From the NCBI GenBank assembly GCA_937128235.1, contig CAKZMG010000210.1:1-46704 (forward strand): a stretch of 46,704 nucleotides of DNA, read 5' to 3'. Origin of the DNA: an uncultured Verrucomicrobiales bacterium. GTDB lineage: Bacteria; Verrucomicrobiota; Verrucomicrobiia; Verrucomicrobiales; Akkermansiaceae. The notes under the pieces are model-generated. The model saw only the letters and a list, made by a program, of their open reading frames with translations, did no database searches and was not told where the DNA came from. This document shows, piece by piece, positions 1 through 34,924 of the stretch; the stretch's first letter is position 1, and each line of letters starts with the position of its first letter. The position numbers were made by a program, and so were the translations under genes.

Positions 1-123
1 AGCCGCGAGCATTATGGAGCGAAGAGGAAGTCTGGAGCTCGAAAGATGAAGGGAGTTGAGGAGATGGAAGGTGAAGCGATCTGTGTGATGAGGGATTTGA
101 GGAAGGATGTTTTTGGCTCGTGA
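1..123 (+). CDS. C-terminal end of a gene cut by the window start
   Basis: Frame 1 is open from the first base to a TGA at 121-123 and gives 40 residues, basic in the first half (RKSGARKMKG). The other two forward frames are stopped within the first 60 bases, so this is the likely reading if a gene enters from the left. The product cannot be recognised from this tail. It may also be chance. Confidence 0.35.
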   Translation, partial: SREHYGAKRKSGARKMKGVEEMEGEAICVMRDLRKDVFGS

Positions 124-399
124 TTAAGCTTTTTGGATACAATTCTAATACAGGTAGCTAACCACGTGGCAGCTAAGATGGTTAGTCATTGATGCAGTGC
201 AGGAAGATTAGAATGATCTTTTGATCGCTTAAAAAGCACTAGATAAAGGCAACTTGAGCAGAGATAGACGCGATGCTGTATTTCTGCTTATTTTAATCAC
301 TTGCTTAGGTAAAGAGAGCTCTCAGTAAGATATATGATTATTTATTAAACTTTGCTCTTGATAAAATTTTCAAAATCCCTAGTTCTTTTCACACTAATT
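124..399. other. Intergenic stretch before the H1-like gene
   Basis: No credible gene is seen here. There is one 7-bp perfect inverted repeat, CTAACCA (158-164) with TGGTTAG (179-185) and a 14-nt loop. It is not followed by a T-run on either strand, so I do not call it a terminator. The last 100 bases are A+T-rich and probably hold the promoter of the downstream basic-protein gene, but no convincing -35/-10 pair could be fixed. Confidence 0.4.
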
Positions 400-26658: not shown

Positions 26659-27666
26659 TTATGATGCTTTGATGGTCTTCGGTGTGGACTTATCTTGTCC
26701 AGGGATTTCCTTGAGCAGGTTCATCACTACGTCATTAGTAGTGATGCCTTCCACGCGTGCATTGTAGTCTAACAGAATTCGATGACGGATCACCGCAGGC
26801 GCGACATACGCCACGTCCTCGAATGAGGCATGGGTGCGCTCGTTCATGAGTGCGCGTGCCTTCGCGGCAGATGCCAGCGAGAGTGCCGCACGTGGGCTGG
26901 CTCCGTATTTCACATTAGCAGATGCCGCGGACTGTCCCGGATGAGTAGCATCCACGAGTCTTGCGATGTAGTTTGCCACTACGTCTGGGAGGTAAATTTT
27001 CCTCACCAACCTGAGCAGCGTATCCAGCGTGCCGGCATCCATGATGCTATCGACATAGGGCTCGGTGCCGAGCTCACGTGAGTTGACAATTTTCTCTAGC
27101 GTAGAGACCGAGTTCCGCGTGACTTCGAGCTTGAAGAGGAAGCGGTCTAGCTGAGCCTCCGGAAGCGGATAAGTGCCCTCTAGCTCGATGGGGTTCTGCG
27201 TGGCGAGCACGAAAAATGGTGACGGCAGGGGATGCGTCTCACCAATGACGGTGACGCGCTGTTCCTGCATCGCTTCCAGCAGTGCGGACTGAGTTTTTGG
27301 TGAGGCGCGGTTGATCTCATCCGCGAGCATGATGTTTGTGAAGAGCGGACCAGGCTGGAATTTAAATTCTCTACGACCATCGACTTCTTGCAAAACAGGA
27401 TTTCCCGTGATGTCGCCAGGGAGGAGATCTGGCGTGAACTGAATCCGTTTGGTGTCTAGCCCTAATGTCTTAGAAAGCCCTTTGACAAGCTCCGTTTTCC
27501 CAAGCCCCGGCAGACCTTCTAGCAAAATATGACCACGAGCGAGAAGCCCTGTGATCACAAGATCGATGAGTTGCTCTTGACCGAAAAGGACTTGATTGAG
27601 CGCGGTGTTCAGTGAGCGGATATGCTTCGCAGCATTGGTGACTTCAGTTTCTGATGCGTATTCCAT
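26659..27666 (-). CDS. moxR: MoxR-family AAA ATPase
   Basis: 335 residues. Walker A GLPGLGKT (51-58), Walker B LADEINR (114-120), sensor-1 region VLATQNPIELEGTYPLPEAQLDRF. MoxR ATPases act with DUF58/VWA proteins, present downstream, probably remodelling or inserting cofactors into substrates. ATG 27666 is used because the 62 codons upstream in frame lack any AAA homology and cover the promoter region. It is the head of the minus-strand operon. Confidence 0.9.
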   Translation of the reverse strand: MEYASETEVTNAAKHIRSLNTALNQVLFGQEQLIDLVITGLLARGHILLEGLPGLGKTELVKGLSKTLGLDTKRIQFTPDLLPGDITGNPVLQEVDGRREFKFQPGPLFTNIMLADEINRASPKTQSALLEAMQEQRVTVIGETHPLPSPFFVLATQNPIELEGTYPLPEAQLDRFLFKLEVTRNSVSTLEKIVNSRELGTEPYVDSIMDAGTLDTLLRLVRKIYLPDVVANYIARLVDATHPGQSAASANVKYGASPRAALSLASAAKARALMNERTHASFEDVAYVAPAVIRHRILLDYNARVEGITTNDVVMNLLKEIPGQDKSTPKTIKAS

Positions 27667-27746
27667 GGTGAGTAAATTTAGGCAAAATCGCCTGATGAAG
27701 GATTCGTTTTTTATTGAGAAAAAACCAAACCACCAAACGACATCTG

Positions 27747-27775
27747 AAAGTATGAAATGGCAGAGTTTGTGGCAA
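27747..27775 (-). promoter_or_regulatory. Possible moxR promoter
   Basis: On the minus strand TTGCCA (complement of 27770-27775), 17 nt, then TACTTT (complement of 27747-27752). The same TTGCCA -35 occurs before the AraC gene and the tRNA. The -10 is weak, and the leader to moxR would be about 75 nt. Confidence 0.3.
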
Positions 27776-27844
27776 GGATAGATTTCGTACCCATCAAATT
27801 GAATCAAGTTGACTGGATTTAAAGGGCGGCTAGGGTTTGGGCTA

Positions 27845-29953
27845 ATGAGCATGGAGATACGAGAGGTGGCGGAGAGGGTTTTGTTTGGGCGGAGCCTGGA
27901 TGAGAAGTTGGCTGTGGGAGAGTGTGCTGGGATGGCTCCTAAAGTAGTGTCGGATGTGGTGCGGGAGTGTGGAGTGAGTATGCCGGATCTGCCAGGGAGA
28001 CCGAGTGAGTTGGTGATTTCTGAGCGTGGGGTTACTCATAAGGGGGGATCGGCTTTTCCGAAGGTGAATAGGATGGATGAGACGGCGGAGCGCGGTAAGA
28101 TGCTGCATTTTCTGGCGAACCATGAGCTGCTGGCGACTGAGTTGATGGCGTTGGTGTTATTAAAGTTTCCGAATGCTCCAGCGGAATTTCGTCAGGGCGT
28201 GTATGAGACGATGCGAGAGGAGCAGGCGCACACGCTGATGTATATGCGGCGGATGCGGGAGTGTGGGATGGATTTTGGTGAGCTTCCAGTGAATGATTAT
28301 TTCTGGCGAATGGTGGCTCCGATGGAGTGCCCGATGGATTTTGTGAGTAGGTTGAGTTTGGTTTTCGAGCAGGCGAATCTGGATTACTCACTGCATTACG
28401 GGAAGCTGTTTCGCGAGGTGGGTGACACGGGGACGGCGGCGGTGCTGGAGAAGATTTATCAAGATGAGATAGGGCACGTGGGGCATGGGCTGAAGTGGTT
28501 TAGAAAATGGAAAGACGAGGGGCTGACGGACTGGGCGGCATTTAAGAAGCAGCTACATTTCCCGCTGACATTAGCACGAGCAAAAGGTATGGCTCCCTAT
28601 GATAGAAGTGGGCGCGAGCTGGCAGGAATAGATGCTGAGTGGGTGGATAAGCTAGAGGTGATAGAGCAGAGTAGGGGGAGGACTCCAGTGGTGCATTGGT
28701 TTAATCCGAATGAGGAGCTGGCTATGGCTTCATCGAGAGGGGCGGATTTTCAGCCCAATTTTCAGCCCAAGCGCGCACATTTGCTGTTAGAAAAAGATTT
28801 AGCGATGCTTCCGCTTACGTGGGCAAGAAGAGATGATGTGGTGTTGGTGGATGAGATGCCGAGTAGGGAGCATGTCTTGCGTTTAAAGCGGAACGGATTC
28901 ACGCTTCCAGAGTTTATTAAAATAGCTGATGATGAAGCGCTGTTAGAGAGAAAAATAGGAGGTCTGAAGCCTTGGGCATGGGGACCGATGGCGAGTGAGC
29001 TGATGAGCCGTTTTAAGCCAGCTATTCCAGTGGGTGTGGATCTTCCTTGGCAAGCATTTGGAAGTGAAGATGCGGAGTTGTTTTCTAAGGGATATGGTTT
29101 GAAATTAGCCGGACTGTTAGATGAAACGATAGGTAAGTTTTGTAAGTCTGTGGATGAGGTGTTAGATTCTGTTAGAGAGTTGTCTGAAGGCGGGGATGTG
29201 TTACTGAAAGCACCGTGGTCAAGCGCGGGTAGAGGGCATCTTAGGCTGCTGGGTGGTGAGTGGACTGTAGCGGGTGAAGGCTGGCTGAATAAGGTCTTAG
29301 CCGAGCAGGGAGGAGTGGTGGTAGAGCCTTGGTTGGATAGGGTGCTAGATTTCTCCGCGCAATATGAAGTGAGCGAGGATGGCATAAAGCTAGTAGGGAT
29401 GACGCGTGTGGTGAATGATGCTGCGGGGAGGTATTTAGGGACATTTGTGCATCATAAGTGGACGAGCGGTTTGGAGCCAGAACTTACGGAGTTTTTATTT
29501 AGAAAAGCAGGTGTGAAGGAGCTCTATAAAAGAGTGATTCCTGAAGTGTTAGAAACATTGTTAGATGAGAATTTCCGTGGCAGCTTCGGGGTGGATGCCA
29601 TGGTTTACCGGGCGCTCAATGGTGAGTTGAAATTAAGAAAGGTAGTGGAGGTAAATCCACGTGTGACGATGGGACGAGTTGCCCTAGAATTACTTAAAAA
29701 ATTTGGGTTTGCTGGAGCTGGGTATTATCAGATTTTACGTAAATCATCTTTGGGGGATATCGATGAGTGGCTAGAGCATTTAGGGTGCGATTCTGGGCAC
29801 GTTGATTTGCGAGATAGTTTGCTAAATAGTTTAGATAAGATGATGACTAAAATCAGCTGTCCTATCAATGATCCTCATTTGGCTGAAGAATTTATCGCTA
29901 TTTGGCATCTTAGGAAAAGCACTGAGGAGGTGCAGAAATGCTTTATTTTATAA
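27845..29953 (+). CDS. DUF455 ferritin-like domain fused to an ATP-grasp-like domain
   Basis: 702 residues. Residues about 1-260 are DUF455, a ferritin-like four-helix bundle, with a complete diiron ligand pattern: E99, E126-x2-H129, E175, E208-x2-H211. Residues about 280-635 look like ATP-grasp: a glycine-rich loop LLKAPWSSAGRG (453-464), a core strand VVVEPWLDR (491-499) and the metal-binding VEVNPR (601-606). DUF455 is usually a stand-alone protein of about 270 residues of unknown reaction. The fusion suggests coupled oxidation and ATP-dependent ligation, an inference. ATG 27845 is preferred to TTG 27809. It is divergent from moxR. Confidence 0.72.
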   Translation: MSMEIREVAERVLFGRSLDEKLAVGECAGMAPKVVSDVVRECGVSMPDLPGRPSELVISERGVTHKGGSAFPKVNRMDETAERGKMLHFLANHELLATELMALVLLKFPNAPAEFRQGVYETMREEQAHTLMYMRRMRECGMDFGELPVNDYFWRMVAPMECPMDFVSRLSLVFEQANLDYSLHYGKLFREVGDTGTAAVLEKIYQDEIGHVGHGLKWFRKWKDEGLTDWAAFKKQLHFPLTLARAKGMAPYDRSGRELAGIDAEWVDKLEVIEQSRGRTPVVHWFNPNEELAMASSRGADFQPNFQPKRAHLLLEKDLAMLPLTWARRDDVVLVDEMPSREHVLRLKRNGFTLPEFIKIADDEALLERKIGGLKPWAWGPMASELMSRFKPAIPVGVDLPWQAFGSEDAELFSKGYGLKLAGLLDETIGKFCKSVDEVLDSVRELSEGGDVLLKAPWSSAGRGHLRLLGGEWTVAGEGWLNKVLAEQGGVVVEPWLDRVLDFSAQYEVSEDGIKLVGMTRVVNDAAGRYLGTFVHHKWTSGLEPELTEFLFRKAGVKELYKRVIPEVLETLLDENFRGSFGVDAMVYRALNGELKLRKVVEVNPRVTMGRVALELLKKFGFAGAGYYQILRKSSLGDIDEWLEHLGCDSGHVDLRDSLLNSLDKMMTKISCPINDPHLAEEFIAIWHLRKSTEEVQKCFIL

Positions 29954-30143: not shown

Positions 30144-31814
30144 GTGTATTCCAACGAAGACTATCTTTTAGAATTGATCGCCGATCATGGCTTGATCACA
30201 CCTGATGATGTAAACATCTACCGTAGCAATTTATCGGGCAACCAGAGTGTGATAGAGCTAATGATTCAGGAACAAAAGCTCACAGAAGAACAAGTGGCAC
30301 AAGTATGTGCTGAGAGTTCTAGTGTGGATTATATTGATCTTGCTCACACTCCAATCGCTCCAGATATTTTTGATGCGATGCCAGAGGAGGTAGTGAGAAG
30401 ATTTAAGGCAGTTCCTGTAGCTGAGAGTGGAGGTTACCTTGTGGTGGCGCTAGCAGATCCGTTAAATTTTGAAGCACTTGATACGTTGCCACATGTTATT
30501 GGAAGAGAAATATCTCCAGTTTGCGCTACTCCGAGCGCGATTGAATCCACCATTAAAGCAAACTATGGTTCTAGTGAGGATGAGATGGGAGAGAGTCAGG
30601 AGGGACTCAGCTGGGGAGGAGAAGAGGATATTGATGAGAATGATGCTCCTATTATTAAGCTGGTGTCACATATTTTAGTGGAAGCATTTAAGATGCGAGC
30701 TAGTGATATTCATATTGAGCCATTAGAAACTTCATTGAGAGTCAGATACCGTGTAGATGGAAAGCTGATGGAGATAGATAACCATCCTAGAAAGCTGCTA
30801 CCTGCTATTGTTGCTCGTCTGAAAGTAATGAGTGGTACGATGAGTATTGCTGAGAAACGCCTGCCTCAAGATGGTAGAATTCAGATCCAAGTTTCAGGGA
30901 AAGAAGTGGATCTACGTGTTTCTAGTGTGCCGAGTAACCACGGTGAGAGTATCGTGATGCGTATCTTGGATAAGACGGCATTGATGCTAGGATTGCCTGA
31001 ACTCGGATTCCTCTCAGATGATCAGGATACTTTTAAAGAGATGATAGGTCTTCCAGACGGTATCATTCTAGTAACTGGTCCTACAGGTAGTGGTAAAACA
31101 ACGACCCTTTATGCGTGTCTGAATGTAATTAATCGACCAGATAAGAAGATTATCACTGTGGAGGATCCTGTGGAATATGAAATGCCAGGGATTAACCAAG
31201 TCATGGTGAAGACTGAGATTGGAATGACATTTGCGGCTGCTCTACGAGCGATGCTGAGACAGGCTCCAAACATTATCATGATTGGTGAGATTCGAGATGA
31301 AGAGACTGCAAATATAGCGATCAATGCCGCGCTTACTGGTCACTTAGTATTTTCAACACTTCACACAAATGATGCACCGAGTGCGGTGGCACGTCTTGCG
31401 GATATTGGAGTAAAGAAATTCCTCATAGCCTCTGCGATCCGAGCGATCATTGCTCAGCGATTGGTGAGAAAACTCTGTCCGGCTTGTAAAGCTCCAGCTG
31501 AACTCACGGAACGCGAGCAAAGAATGCTCAACATCGATGGCTCTCAAATGTCTGATAGCTCTATCTACGGTCCTGGTGGCTGTGAGAAATGTAGGCAAGG
31601 AGGATACAAGGGACGTATGGGCTTATTTGAGATTCTCAAAGTGGATGATGAAGTGAGCCACATGATCAATGATGATCTCTCCTCACCACAACTTAGAAAG
31701 CGTGCGAGAGAGCTAGGTATGAGAACGCTTAGAGAAGACGGGATCAGAAAAGTACTTTCTGGCATGACCTCGGCAGAAGAAGTGATAGGAGTGACGATGG
31801 CGGATGGAATATAA
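30144..31814 (+). CDS. GspE/PilB-type secretion ATPase, first copy
   Basis: 556 residues. N-terminal MshEN-like domain (about 1-150), then the ATPase domain with Walker A GPTGSGKT (312-319), Asp box and Walker B IIMIGEIRDEETA, His box GHLVFSTLHTND, and a zinc-binding CPACK...CEKC motif near the C-terminus. It powers type II secretion or type IV pilus extension at the inner membrane. GTG start with no Shine-Dalgarno. The next gene is a second full-length copy, 59 bp downstream. Confidence 0.9.
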   Translation: MYSNEDYLLELIADHGLITPDDVNIYRSNLSGNQSVIELMIQEQKLTEEQVAQVCAESSSVDYIDLAHTPIAPDIFDAMPEEVVRRFKAVPVAESGGYLVVALADPLNFEALDTLPHVIGREISPVCATPSAIESTIKANYGSSEDEMGESQEGLSWGGEEDIDENDAPIIKLVSHILVEAFKMRASDIHIEPLETSLRVRYRVDGKLMEIDNHPRKLLPAIVARLKVMSGTMSIAEKRLPQDGRIQIQVSGKEVDLRVSSVPSNHGESIVMRILDKTALMLGLPELGFLSDDQDTFKEMIGLPDGIILVTGPTGSGKTTTLYACLNVINRPDKKIITVEDPVEYEMPGINQVMVKTEIGMTFAAALRAMLRQAPNIIMIGEIRDEETANIAINAALTGHLVFSTLHTNDAPSAVARLADIGVKKFLIASAIRAIIAQRLVRKLCPACKAPAELTEREQRMLNIDGSQMSDSSIYGPGGCEKCRQGGYKGRMGLFEILKVDDEVSHMINDDLSSPQLRKRARELGMRTLREDGIRKVLSGMTSAEEVIGVTMADGI

Positions 31815-31873: not shown

Positions 31874-33541
31874 ATGGATAATCAACAAGTCATAGACCTC
31901 TTCATGTCAAGAGGCTTAGTAGATAAGTATTTGGCACAAGATATGATCACCTCAATGGAGACTAGTGGCAAAAGCATTGCTGAGACGCTTGCAGATTTCG
32001 ACATCGTAGCTGATAAGGACGACATCTGGCCAGTAATAGCCACTGAGATGGGTGCTGAAATGGTCGATCTCACGCAATTCGTTCCACCTGAAGAGCTTCT
32101 AGGGCAGATTCCTGGAGGGATGGCTCGGTTGCATGGGGCATTTCCCGTTAATTTAGCAGCAGAGGGACTCTATGTAGCACTTGCGGATCCTCTTAATCCT
32201 CAGGCGGCAGAAGATCTCCGTTTCGCACTCGGGAAAGAAATCATCGTTGTTGTTGCTCCAGATCATCTCATTGAGAAGAAGATAGCTGAATATTATGGTG
32301 GTGAAGATAGCATGGGCGATGTCCTCAGCCAGCTAGATTCTAAAAGCATGGGAGACCTCTCTGCGGAAGATTTAGAATCTGAGGCAAACTCAGCACCGAT
32401 CATCCGTTATGTGGATTTGGTAATGTATCAGGCGATCAATGAACAAGCCTCAGACATCCACTTCGAGCCATTTGAGAGTGAGTTCAAAATCCGCTACCGT
32501 GTGGATGGCGCCTTATTTGAAATGTCGCCACCACCGATGAATCTAGCGCGAGCTATCATTTCCCGCCTCAAGGTGATGTCGAACATGAACATCGCAGAGA
32601 CTCGTGTTCCGCAGGATGGTAGGATTGTAAAAAATATTGGTGATAAGCAGGTTGATATGCGTGTTTCATCGCTTCCTACCCAGCATGGCGAGAGTGTGGT
32701 GTTACGTATTCTTGATAGAAGTAATGTGAATCTTGAGCTTGATGTGTTAGGGCTTCCCGATGAAATGTATAGTTATATCTCTGAGACTATTCATAAACCA
32801 AACGGAATTTTCGTAGTAACTGGTCCTACTGGTGCGGGTAAAACTACTACTCTTTACGCAGCCTTGCGTAAGATTAATACGATTGATGCTAAACTTCTCA
32901 CCGCAGAAGATCCTGTAGAATATGATATTGATGGGATTATCCAGATTCCGGTGAATGATGCGATCGGTCTCGATTTCTCAAGGATTCTCAGAGCGTTCCT
33001 GCGACAAGATCCGGATCGAATCCTAGTGGGAGAGATACGTGATAAAGAAACAGCACAGATTTCAATTCAAGCATCACTCACTGGTCACTTGGTGCTATCT
33101 ACACTTCACACTAACGATGCAGCTGGTGCTGTGACTCGTCTGGTTGATATGGGGGTCGAGCCATTCCTTGTCGCGGCTTCTCTTGAGGGAGTGCTAGCTC
33201 AGCGACTCGTGAGAACGATTTGTAAAGACTGCCGAGCATCCTATGAGCCAAGTGAAGCACTCATTAATCAGCTAGGACTCTCTCCACATGAACTAGGAGA
33301 TAAGGAGTTTTATACAGGTCAAGGCTGTGAAGTTTGTGGAAATGGATACAAAGGAAGACAAGGGCTTTTCGAGCTTTTAGATGTCACAGATCCAATTCGC
33401 GAATTAATCACGAATCGGTCACCTTCAGTAGTAATCAAGCAGAAAGCGATAGAGCTAGGAATGCAGACACTGCGAGAGGATGGGCTGCGTAACATCTACA
33501 CGGGTTCTACGACCATCGAGGAGGTTCTTAAATACACATAA
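31874..33541 (+). CDS. GspE/PilB-type secretion ATPase, second copy
   Basis: 555 residues, paralogous to the preceding gene throughout. Walker A GPTGAGKT (317-324), Walker B RILVGEIRDKETA, His box GHLVLSTLHTND and zinc motif CKDC...CEVC are all intact, so both copies look active. PilT-type retraction ATPases lack the MshEN domain and zinc motif, so this is not PilT. The two may make alternative hexamers or a hetero-oligomer. A 96-bp gap separates it from gspF. Confidence 0.9.
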   Translation: MDNQQVIDLFMSRGLVDKYLAQDMITSMETSGKSIAETLADFDIVADKDDIWPVIATEMGAEMVDLTQFVPPEELLGQIPGGMARLHGAFPVNLAAEGLYVALADPLNPQAAEDLRFALGKEIIVVVAPDHLIEKKIAEYYGGEDSMGDVLSQLDSKSMGDLSAEDLESEANSAPIIRYVDLVMYQAINEQASDIHFEPFESEFKIRYRVDGALFEMSPPPMNLARAIISRLKVMSNMNIAETRVPQDGRIVKNIGDKQVDMRVSSLPTQHGESVVLRILDRSNVNLELDVLGLPDEMYSYISETIHKPNGIFVVTGPTGAGKTTTLYAALRKINTIDAKLLTAEDPVEYDIDGIIQIPVNDAIGLDFSRILRAFLRQDPDRILVGEIRDKETAQISIQASLTGHLVLSTLHTNDAAGAVTRLVDMGVEPFLVAASLEGVLAQRLVRTICKDCRASYEPSEALINQLGLSPHELGDKEFYTGQGCEVCGNGYKGRQGLFELLDVTDPIRELITNRSPSVVIKQKAIELGMQTLREDGLRNIYTGSTTIEEVLKYT

Positions 33542-33637: not shown

Positions 33638-34924
33638 ATGGCGCATTTCCAATATCTAGCACTCGATGCTAAAGGCGAACAGACAACGGGCTCTATAGAA
33701 GCTGGCTCAGAAGCAGATGCAATCACCCAGATCAGAGCTCAAGGGCTCTATCCTACGCAGGTGGTGGAGCAGGGCAAAGGCACCCTAAATGCTGCCTCGA
33801 CAAAAGGTAAGTCATCTGTCGGTAAAAAAGGCAAAGGCAAGGCAAAGGCGAAGAAGGTATCCGGAGGTAAGGTAAAGCCAAAGGTAATGATGATCTTCAC
33901 ACGTCAGCTCGCTACATTGATTGACTCAGGCCTTCCCTTGCTCAAAGGACTCAATGTTTTAGCCAAGCAGGAGCCAAATCCAGTGCTGAAGAATACGATC
34001 ACTAGCATCGCGGACTCTGTGCAGAGTGGTTCAACATTCTCAGAAAGTCTAGCGCAGCACCCTAAGCTATTTAACAAGCTCTATGTAAATATGGTCAAAG
34101 CTGGTGAGCTCGGTGGTGTTCTCGAAGTCGTTCTCACACGTCTTGCAGAATACATGGAGAAGGCGAATAAGCTGAAAAATAAGATTGTTTCAGCGATGGT
34201 CTATCCGTTCATCGTGATGTTCATTGCGGTGGCGATCCTCGTCTTCCTTATGGTCGTCGTGGTTCCTCAGTTTAAGAAAATGTTTGAAGACATGGATCAG
34301 ACTTTGCCTCCGATCTCAGAATTTGTGTTTAACTTCTCGGATGCATTGATGGCAAACTTCATCTTCATGCCGGTCGTCGTTTGGTTAGTTCTCGGTTTCA
34401 TGTTACTCGTCTTCCTGTTCAATCAATGGGCAGGCACGGTATCTGGAAGAGAGGCTGTAGATGGATTTAAACTTAAAATGCCTCTACTAGGTGACCTTCA
34501 AAGAAAAAGTGCGATTTCAAGATTTAGCCGAACTCTCGGAACCCTAGTCACATCAGGTGTGCCCATTCTCCAAGCTCTCAACATCACTAGTGATACCGCT
34601 GGAAACGTCGTAGTTTCTAAAGCTATTAACAACATTCACGGTGCGGTTAAAGAAGGTGAGTCCATTGTTACTCCGATGTCGGCAAGTAAGGTATTCCCTC
34701 CAATGGTCATCAGTATGGTGGATGTTGGTGAAGAAACTGGTAAGCTTCCAGACATGTTGCTCAAAGTAGCAGACGTCTATGATGACGAGGTGGATAATGC
34801 TGTGTCAGCACTCACATCGATCATTGAGCCACTCATGATCATTATCCTCGCGGTTATCGTGGGAACCATCGTTGTTGCGATGTTCTTACCACTCATCAAG
34901 ATGATGAACTCAGTGGAGCAGTAA
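33638..34924 (+). CDS. GspF/PilC-type inner membrane platform protein
   Basis: 428 residues with two T2SF domains (about 85-205 and 285-410) and three transmembrane helices near 185, 245 and 395. It links the assembly ATPase to pseudopilin extraction. N-terminal 47 residues are the usual MAHFQYLALDAKG-type domain. The linker at about 47-83 is rich in Gly and Lys (KGKGKAKAKK), longer and more basic than in most GspF, and may contact the ATPases or the membrane. Confidence 0.92.
   Translation: MAHFQYLALDAKGEQTTGSIEAGSEADAITQIRAQGLYPTQVVEQGKGTLNAASTKGKSSVGKKGKGKAKAKKVSGGKVKPKVMMIFTRQLATLIDSGLPLLKGLNVLAKQEPNPVLKNTITSIADSVQSGSTFSESLAQHPKLFNKLYVNMVKAGELGGVLEVVLTRLAEYMEKANKLKNKIVSAMVYPFIVMFIAVAILVFLMVVVVPQFKKMFEDMDQTLPPISEFVFNFSDALMANFIFMPVVVWLVLGFMLLVFLFNQWAGTVSGREAVDGFKLKMPLLGDLQRKSAISRFSRTLGTLVTSGVPILQALNITSDTAGNVVVSKAINNIHGAVKEGESIVTPMSASKVFPPMVISMVDVGEETGKLPDMLLKVADVYDDEVDNAVSALTSIIEPLMIIILAVIVGTIVVAMFLPLIKMMNSVEQ

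Follow-up and report, generated by a model that had tools for sequence, protein, structure and literature searches.

A ferritin-like DUF455 domain fused to an ATP-grasp ligase domain in Verrucomicrobiota, with both predicted catalytic sites retained

We describe a gene of an uncultured Verrucomicrobiales bacterium in which a ferritin-like DUF455 domain and an ATP-grasp domain are joined in one chain. The gene lies in a stretch of 46,704 nucleotides, the whole of which is referred to here as the window. An earlier note had read the fusion from the DNA letters, and its reading is borne out by a DUF455 profile match (PF04305, E=5.6e-47), by fold comparison of both halves (Z to 17.6 for the N-terminal and to 27.4 for the C-terminal half), and by residue conservation. 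The fold of each half, the retention of both sites, and the descent from one long-lived fusion are well supported computationally, on the basis of models and alignments. With slightly more belief than doubt, we infer the activities, their order, and the substrate: the protein would act as a bifunctional diiron oxidase and amide ligase on an amino-acid-like or small-peptide substrate. DUF455 is a domain of unknown function, and the fusion is among the few clues tying it to a partner chemistry, as it narrows the candidate substrates to those bearing an amine or a carboxylate.

One intact gene without a conserved neighborhood

The fused DUF455/ATP-grasp protein is encoded by one intact frame of 702 codons plus stop at 27845..29953 of the window (+ strand, as for all features of the protein given below). 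Alignments with homologues run from a shared start region across the whole protein, the homologues beginning either at the ATG at 27845 or 2 codons downstream; a possible upstream TTG start would add 12 residues. Searches of the source genome with each half return a single copy of DUF455 and a single copy of the ligase half.

The gene is flanked by a divergent MoxR-type AAA gene and by tandem PilB/GspE-type ATPase genes (starting at 30144 and 31874). As listed, the MoxR-type ORF spans 26659-27852 (- strand), and its ATG start falls within the fusion gene. More plausibly, the gene starts near 27666 (MEYASE; gene 26659-27666), leaving an intergenic gap of ~180 bases to the fusion gene. The tandem ATPase genes (30144-31814 and 31874-33541) share 46% identity over 511 residues, and a T2SSF/PilC-type gene comes next at 33638-34924. 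The pair is a duplicated assembly ATPase of a type IV pilus or type II secretion machine. Clustering of ~30 flanking regions reveals no conserved operon around the fusion gene, and the neighbors common to its close relatives are MoxR/ABC genes and pilus genes. The gene thus stands alone, as the earlier note had stated. The neighborhood was ruled out as a guide to the substrate, since no context is kept beyond close relatives.

The N-terminal half is a predicted ferritin-like bundle with a complete metal-ligand set

The N-terminal domain (residues 1-280, 27845..28684) is assigned by sequence to DUF455, with the PF04305 profile matching residues 46-267 at 160.8 bits, well past the curated cut-off of 34.3. 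Predicted alone from 12 homologue sequences, the domain displays four long helices (80-107, 113-139, 163-191, and 195-222) at medium model confidence (mean pLDDT 69, pTM 0.71). Bacterioferritin and aldehyde-deformylating oxygenase are the top matches in Foldseek, with weak E-values and a probability near 1. In VIA-align, each of the 50 matches listed (Z 15.5-17.6) is a ferritin-like protein or a related one with four helices; ferritin-like folds fill the listing, and the fold of heme-oxygenase-like diiron oxidases (HDO) is absent among the matches listed. At the moderate confidence of the model, the domain is a ferritin-like four-helix bundle. Sequence comparison with the PDB gives marginal matches only for the DUF455 profile (best 1nf4 at 0.053) and nothing at E<=1 for the full fusion protein as a single sequence. 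Further, the MiaE profile (PF06175) does not match the window's own protein at E<=1, and membership in the MiaE family was rejected on this ground.

Six residues of the domain, E94, E126, H129, E175, E208, and H211, are invariant in the alignment (40/40 homologues) and distributed one set per helix. Helix 1 carries E94 (28124..28126), helix 2 the pair E126-x-x-H129 (28220..28231), helix 3 E175 (28367..28369), and helix 4 the pair E208-x-x-H211 (28466..28477). As judged from the aligned sequences, the predicted metal-ligand set E, ExxH, E, ExxH is complete in the DUF455 half. The ligands named by the earlier note in helices 2, 3, and 4 are among these invariant residues, but its choice for helix 1, E99 (28139-28141), gives way to D in the homologue that stands alone in Sinorhizobium. 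E94 is the more probable helix-1 ligand: it is invariant, is separated from the turn between helices A and B by the same distance as E126, and matches in register E18 of E. coli bacterioferritin, which we take to be a ligand position of that protein (structural alignment of residues 78..225 to 2..144).

The closest folds to the N-terminal domain, among the matches listed by Foldseek and VIA-align, are bacterioferritins and Dps-like proteins. This ranking would suit a diiron half that handles iron or redox chemistry, as a ferroxidase, a peroxidase, or an O2 sensor, and regulates or protects the ligase, with no substrate shared between the two, and the peroxiredoxin gene that precedes the stand-alone DUF455 gene of Sinorhizobium points the same way. 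However, the protein shows no sign of a storage cage, its N-terminal domain being fused to a 420-residue enzyme. Ferritin-like oxygenases such as aldehyde-deformylating oxygenase lie within ~2 Z units, too narrow a margin for the ranking of folds to settle the matter, and the fold match does not separate a ferroxidase from an oxygenase. We consider a regulatory or protective diiron half unlikely, if deserving of attention. Two ferritin-like diiron monooxygenases, aldehyde-deformylating oxygenase and the MiaE-annotated structure 8fhc, align with the N-terminal domain at Z about 15.7 over 168-170 residues, a match that extends beyond the four helices; they differ from it in having no significant sequence relation and in their substrate, which is another one or unassigned.

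The C-terminal half resembles ATP-grasp peptide ligases

The C-terminal domain (residues 281-702, 28685..29950) is an ATP-grasp ligase by modelled fold and by residues, with predicted pre-ATP-grasp, ATP-grasp, and C-terminal lid parts, as indicated by VIA-align and by stand-alone Bacteroidales homologues. Its core is confidently modelled in the full-length prediction, where most blocks from 415 to 640 score 80-95. Aligned with solved structures, residues 281-702 match 3wvr best (Z 27.4), followed by the Streptomyces ATP-grasp peptide ligase 8ynd (26.6), BesA (24.1), and LdmS (23.6), whereas the remaining ATP-grasps, among them glycinamide ribonucleotide synthetase, PurK, and biotin carboxylase, score Z <=20.0. 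A C-terminal fold other than ATP-grasp, which would have spoken against the earlier note, was not found. We take 3wvq/3wvr to be PGM1 of pheganomycin biosynthesis, and 7r8p/7r8q are presumably LdmS (SAOUHSC_02373). By modelled fold, the C-terminal half is closest to the ATP-grasp peptide and dipeptide ligases of the PGM1, BesA, and LdmS group.

The ATP-grasp motifs quoted in the earlier note were all located, with LLKAPWSSAGRG at residues 453-464, VVVEPWLD at 491-498, and VEVNPR at 601-606. K455 and the glycine-rich loop (KAPWSSAGRG, 29207..29236) are predicted to bind the ATP phosphates, with K455 present in 44/44 and G462 in 39/44 homologues. By analogy to the superfamily, the E494-PWL-..-DFS hinge (29324..29356; E494 and F503 44/44, D502 43/44) would bind the adenine/ribose side. 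The same analogy makes D584 (29594..29596) a putative Mg ligand and assigns to the E602-V-N604-P-R606 segment (29648..29662) further Mg ligands and a phosphate-contacting arginine. K455, E494, D584, E602, N604, and R606 are invariant in the alignment (44/44 homologues), so that the VEVNPR motif, whose conservation the earlier note had counted on, is kept in its E, N, and R positions throughout.

Within this superfamily, the domain passes no named family's cut-off. It scores 13.4 bits with Pfam ATP-grasp_3 (PF02655), under the cut-off of 23.2. LdmS is the sole match of the C-domain profile among PDB sequences (E=0.019), and a stand-alone relative, P0003, matches the LdmS model (L-aspartate--L-methionine ligase, NF047900) at E=8e-8 with 31.4 bits, far below the equivalog cut-off of 475 bits; the same model gives no match at E<=1 to the window protein or its ligase half. 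LdmS itself differs further from the window protein in that it is not fused. Analogously, PGM1, the best whole-domain fold match (rmsd 3.5 over 365 residues), shares 15% identity with the C-terminal half and is a separate protein without a fused oxidase.

PGM1 joins a non-proteinogenic amino acid to a small core peptide (PMC8939145). As the best fold match, it would also be compatible with a ligase that attaches an amino acid to a macromolecule, be it a protein, a peptide terminus, a tRNA, or a cell-envelope component, with the diiron half hydroxylating the same target in a MiaE-like manner. Moreover, one stand-alone DUF455 protein weakly matches MiaE (E=0.0036, under the cut-off), and a gene that stands alone and is widely retained would fit a target general to the cell. 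Yet the fusion protein itself lacks a MiaE match at E<=1, a profile search reveals no nucleic-acid-binding domain, and no neighbor is retained beside the gene. A universal target also fits poorly with a gene as patchily present as this one (22/388 phylum genomes), and we judge a macromolecular target to be quite improbable.

A probable single old fusion recurs in Verrucomicrobiota

The fusion is not peculiar to the source genome but recurs in many Verrucomicrobiota. A profile search of genome contigs yields 11 fusion loci, all from Verrucomicrobiota by record titles. The same two-domain order is found in 22/388 sampled genomes of the phylum and in 64/97 of the source's own family. In the own genus, 12/12 sampled genomes carry it, while it is missing from every sampled genome of another genus of the family (g2), a gap that would suit a diiron half with a redox or iron-handling role. 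Across the 11 contig loci, the phylum samples, and the plasmid records, the fusion is confined to Verrucomicrobiota, and no further relatives were found in viral contigs and phages.

The earlier note had described DUF455 as normally a short stand-alone protein, which holds elsewhere (275-284 aa) but not for the strong matches sampled in Verrucomicrobiota. In a 289-genome sample of the phylum, all DUF455 matches above 140 bits reside in frames of 648-724 aa and are fusions, whereas matches of 37-54 bits, weaker but still above the cut-off, come from other ferritin-like proteins, whose frames span 216-596 aa. Frames of ~430-600 aa with DUF455 scores as high as 54 bits occur in the phylum (family f5 and others), in some genomes in several copies; by sequence, they look like a different, unfused ferritin-like group.

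The alignment set comprises 45 non-redundant sequences, namely 39 fusions, 5 Bacteroidales stand-alone ligase halves, and 1 stand-alone DUF455. All 39 fusions retain the full predicted catalytic set in each half without exception, and the domain boundary is constant, with an FNP motif at residue 270-287 in 37/39. In a midpoint-rooted tree of the ligase half, in which some branches are long, the 39 fusions form one group with full support, apart from the Bacteroidales stand-alone relatives. Distances in the N-terminal half correlate with those in the C-terminal half (r=0.86), as joint inheritance would predict. The N-terminal half is the better conserved of the two (mean difference 39% vs 64%), more like a substrate-bearing active site than the accessory expected of a regulatory or protective module. 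As far as these sequences indicate, the pattern fits one old fusion, inherited mostly vertically and occasionally lost.

That the protein is a read-through, a misassembly, or a degenerate fusion with one inactive half is hardly credible in view of 39 non-redundant homologues with the same order and linker position (FNP motif at 270-287 in 37) and of every predicted catalytic residue being kept in both halves; no observation spoke in favor of such an origin. Recurrence in phylum and family (22/388 and 64/97), together with residue conservation, led us to reject an artefactual fusion as a general explanation, and chance is excluded as the source of the DUF455/ATP-grasp observation.

Proposed oxidase-ligase activity

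The two-step modification by a fused oxidase and ligase that the earlier note had proposed is a reasonable inference. The DUF455 half would be a carboxylate-bridged diiron (or Mn/Fe) oxidase or oxygenase with its site formed by E94, E126/H129, E175, and E208/H211. Using O2 and two electrons, it would hydroxylate, desaturate, or cleave a substrate, or oxidize the ligated product. With Mg-ATP bound, ATP-grasp enzymes turn a carboxylate into an acyl-phosphate, from which an amine then receives the acyl group. Because this mechanism is common to the superfamily and the residues are kept, we propose the corresponding reaction for the ligase half, which would be a carboxylate-amine ligase of the peptide/dipeptide ligase type. 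Mg-ATP would be bound via K455, E494, D584, E602, N604, and R606, the carboxylate converted to an acyl-phosphate, and the acyl group passed on to an amine. A single substrate, either a short peptide or derived from an amino acid, would be processed by the two halves one after the other, resulting in an oxidized amide product.

That both sites serve one shared molecule is suggested by the fusion, by the unbroken retention of both sites, and by published cases in which HDO genes lie beside genes of ATP-grasp amino-acid ligases. In all, 1447 HDO sequences have an ATP-grasp ligase nearby, across at least 25 types of cluster; for mangotoxin, whose enzymes were studied in vitro, MboA (HDO) and the ATP-grasp ligases MboC/MboD belong to one peptide pathway (PMC13185094). 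A 2010 paper described predicted operons of a similar kind (PMC2922099). These clusters resemble the fusion in that a diiron oxidase and ATP-grasp amino-acid ligases are encoded together. In contrast, their oxidase has a heme-oxygenase-like fold and is encoded by a separate clustered gene, while the window holds a ferritin-like domain in a lone fused gene; the clusters show a shared logic with the fusion, not kinship. Both activities, the order in which they act, and a common, peptide-like substrate are proposed for the fusion protein. In its most specific form, the proposal is a single-chain oxidase-ligase whose DUF455 diiron oxygenase and PGM1/BesA-like ligase pass one intermediate between them to give an oxidized amino-acid or peptide metabolite, which we find plausible, with doubt just outweighing confidence.

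If the halves act in sequence, the fusion would provide a compact one-gene oxidase-plus-amino-acid-ligase route, otherwise known from gene clusters. If the single-chain oxidase-ligase proves true, DUF455 would gain its first assigned reaction, to judge from our literature and database searches. In the titles and abstracts of open-licence literature, we found no published study of DUF455 function; a large-scale fold assignment paper mentions DUF455 in one line. The DUF455/ATP-grasp architecture was likewise not found in open-licence literature. PMC13185094, a match for ATP-grasp with ferritin-like, mentions the latter only when comparing Fe-Fe distances. The other match for the pair was, by its abstract, a general survey of NTP enzymes.

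Each half also occurs alone

DUF455 occurs alone in Alphaproteobacteria; plasmid records contain it in Sinorhizobium, Azospirillum, and others (275-284 aa). The Sinorhizobium meliloti pSymB protein shares 32% identity over 182 residues and the same E/H ligands except E99, but stands alone where the DUF455 domain of the window is fused to a ligase. The ligase half alone (query 282-620) occurs on plasmid records of Prevotella, Parabacteroides, Bacteroides, and Phocaeicola, in Bacteroidales proteins of 369-419 aa that are hypothetical or without annotation. WP_004363789.1 of Prevotella nigrescens is 28% identical to the C-terminal half over 351 residues and carries the same K/E/D/E-N-R residues; proteins of this type differ from the fusion in having no diiron domain and are annotated as hypothetical. 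The fusion links this unnamed ATP-grasp-like protein to DUF455, so that a function assigned to either would aid the assignment of its counterpart. In 4/5 records, the Bacteroidales gene lies divergently beside an AAA ATPase gene and nifJ (pyruvate:ferredoxin oxidoreductase), possibly a conserved context of the unnamed protein.
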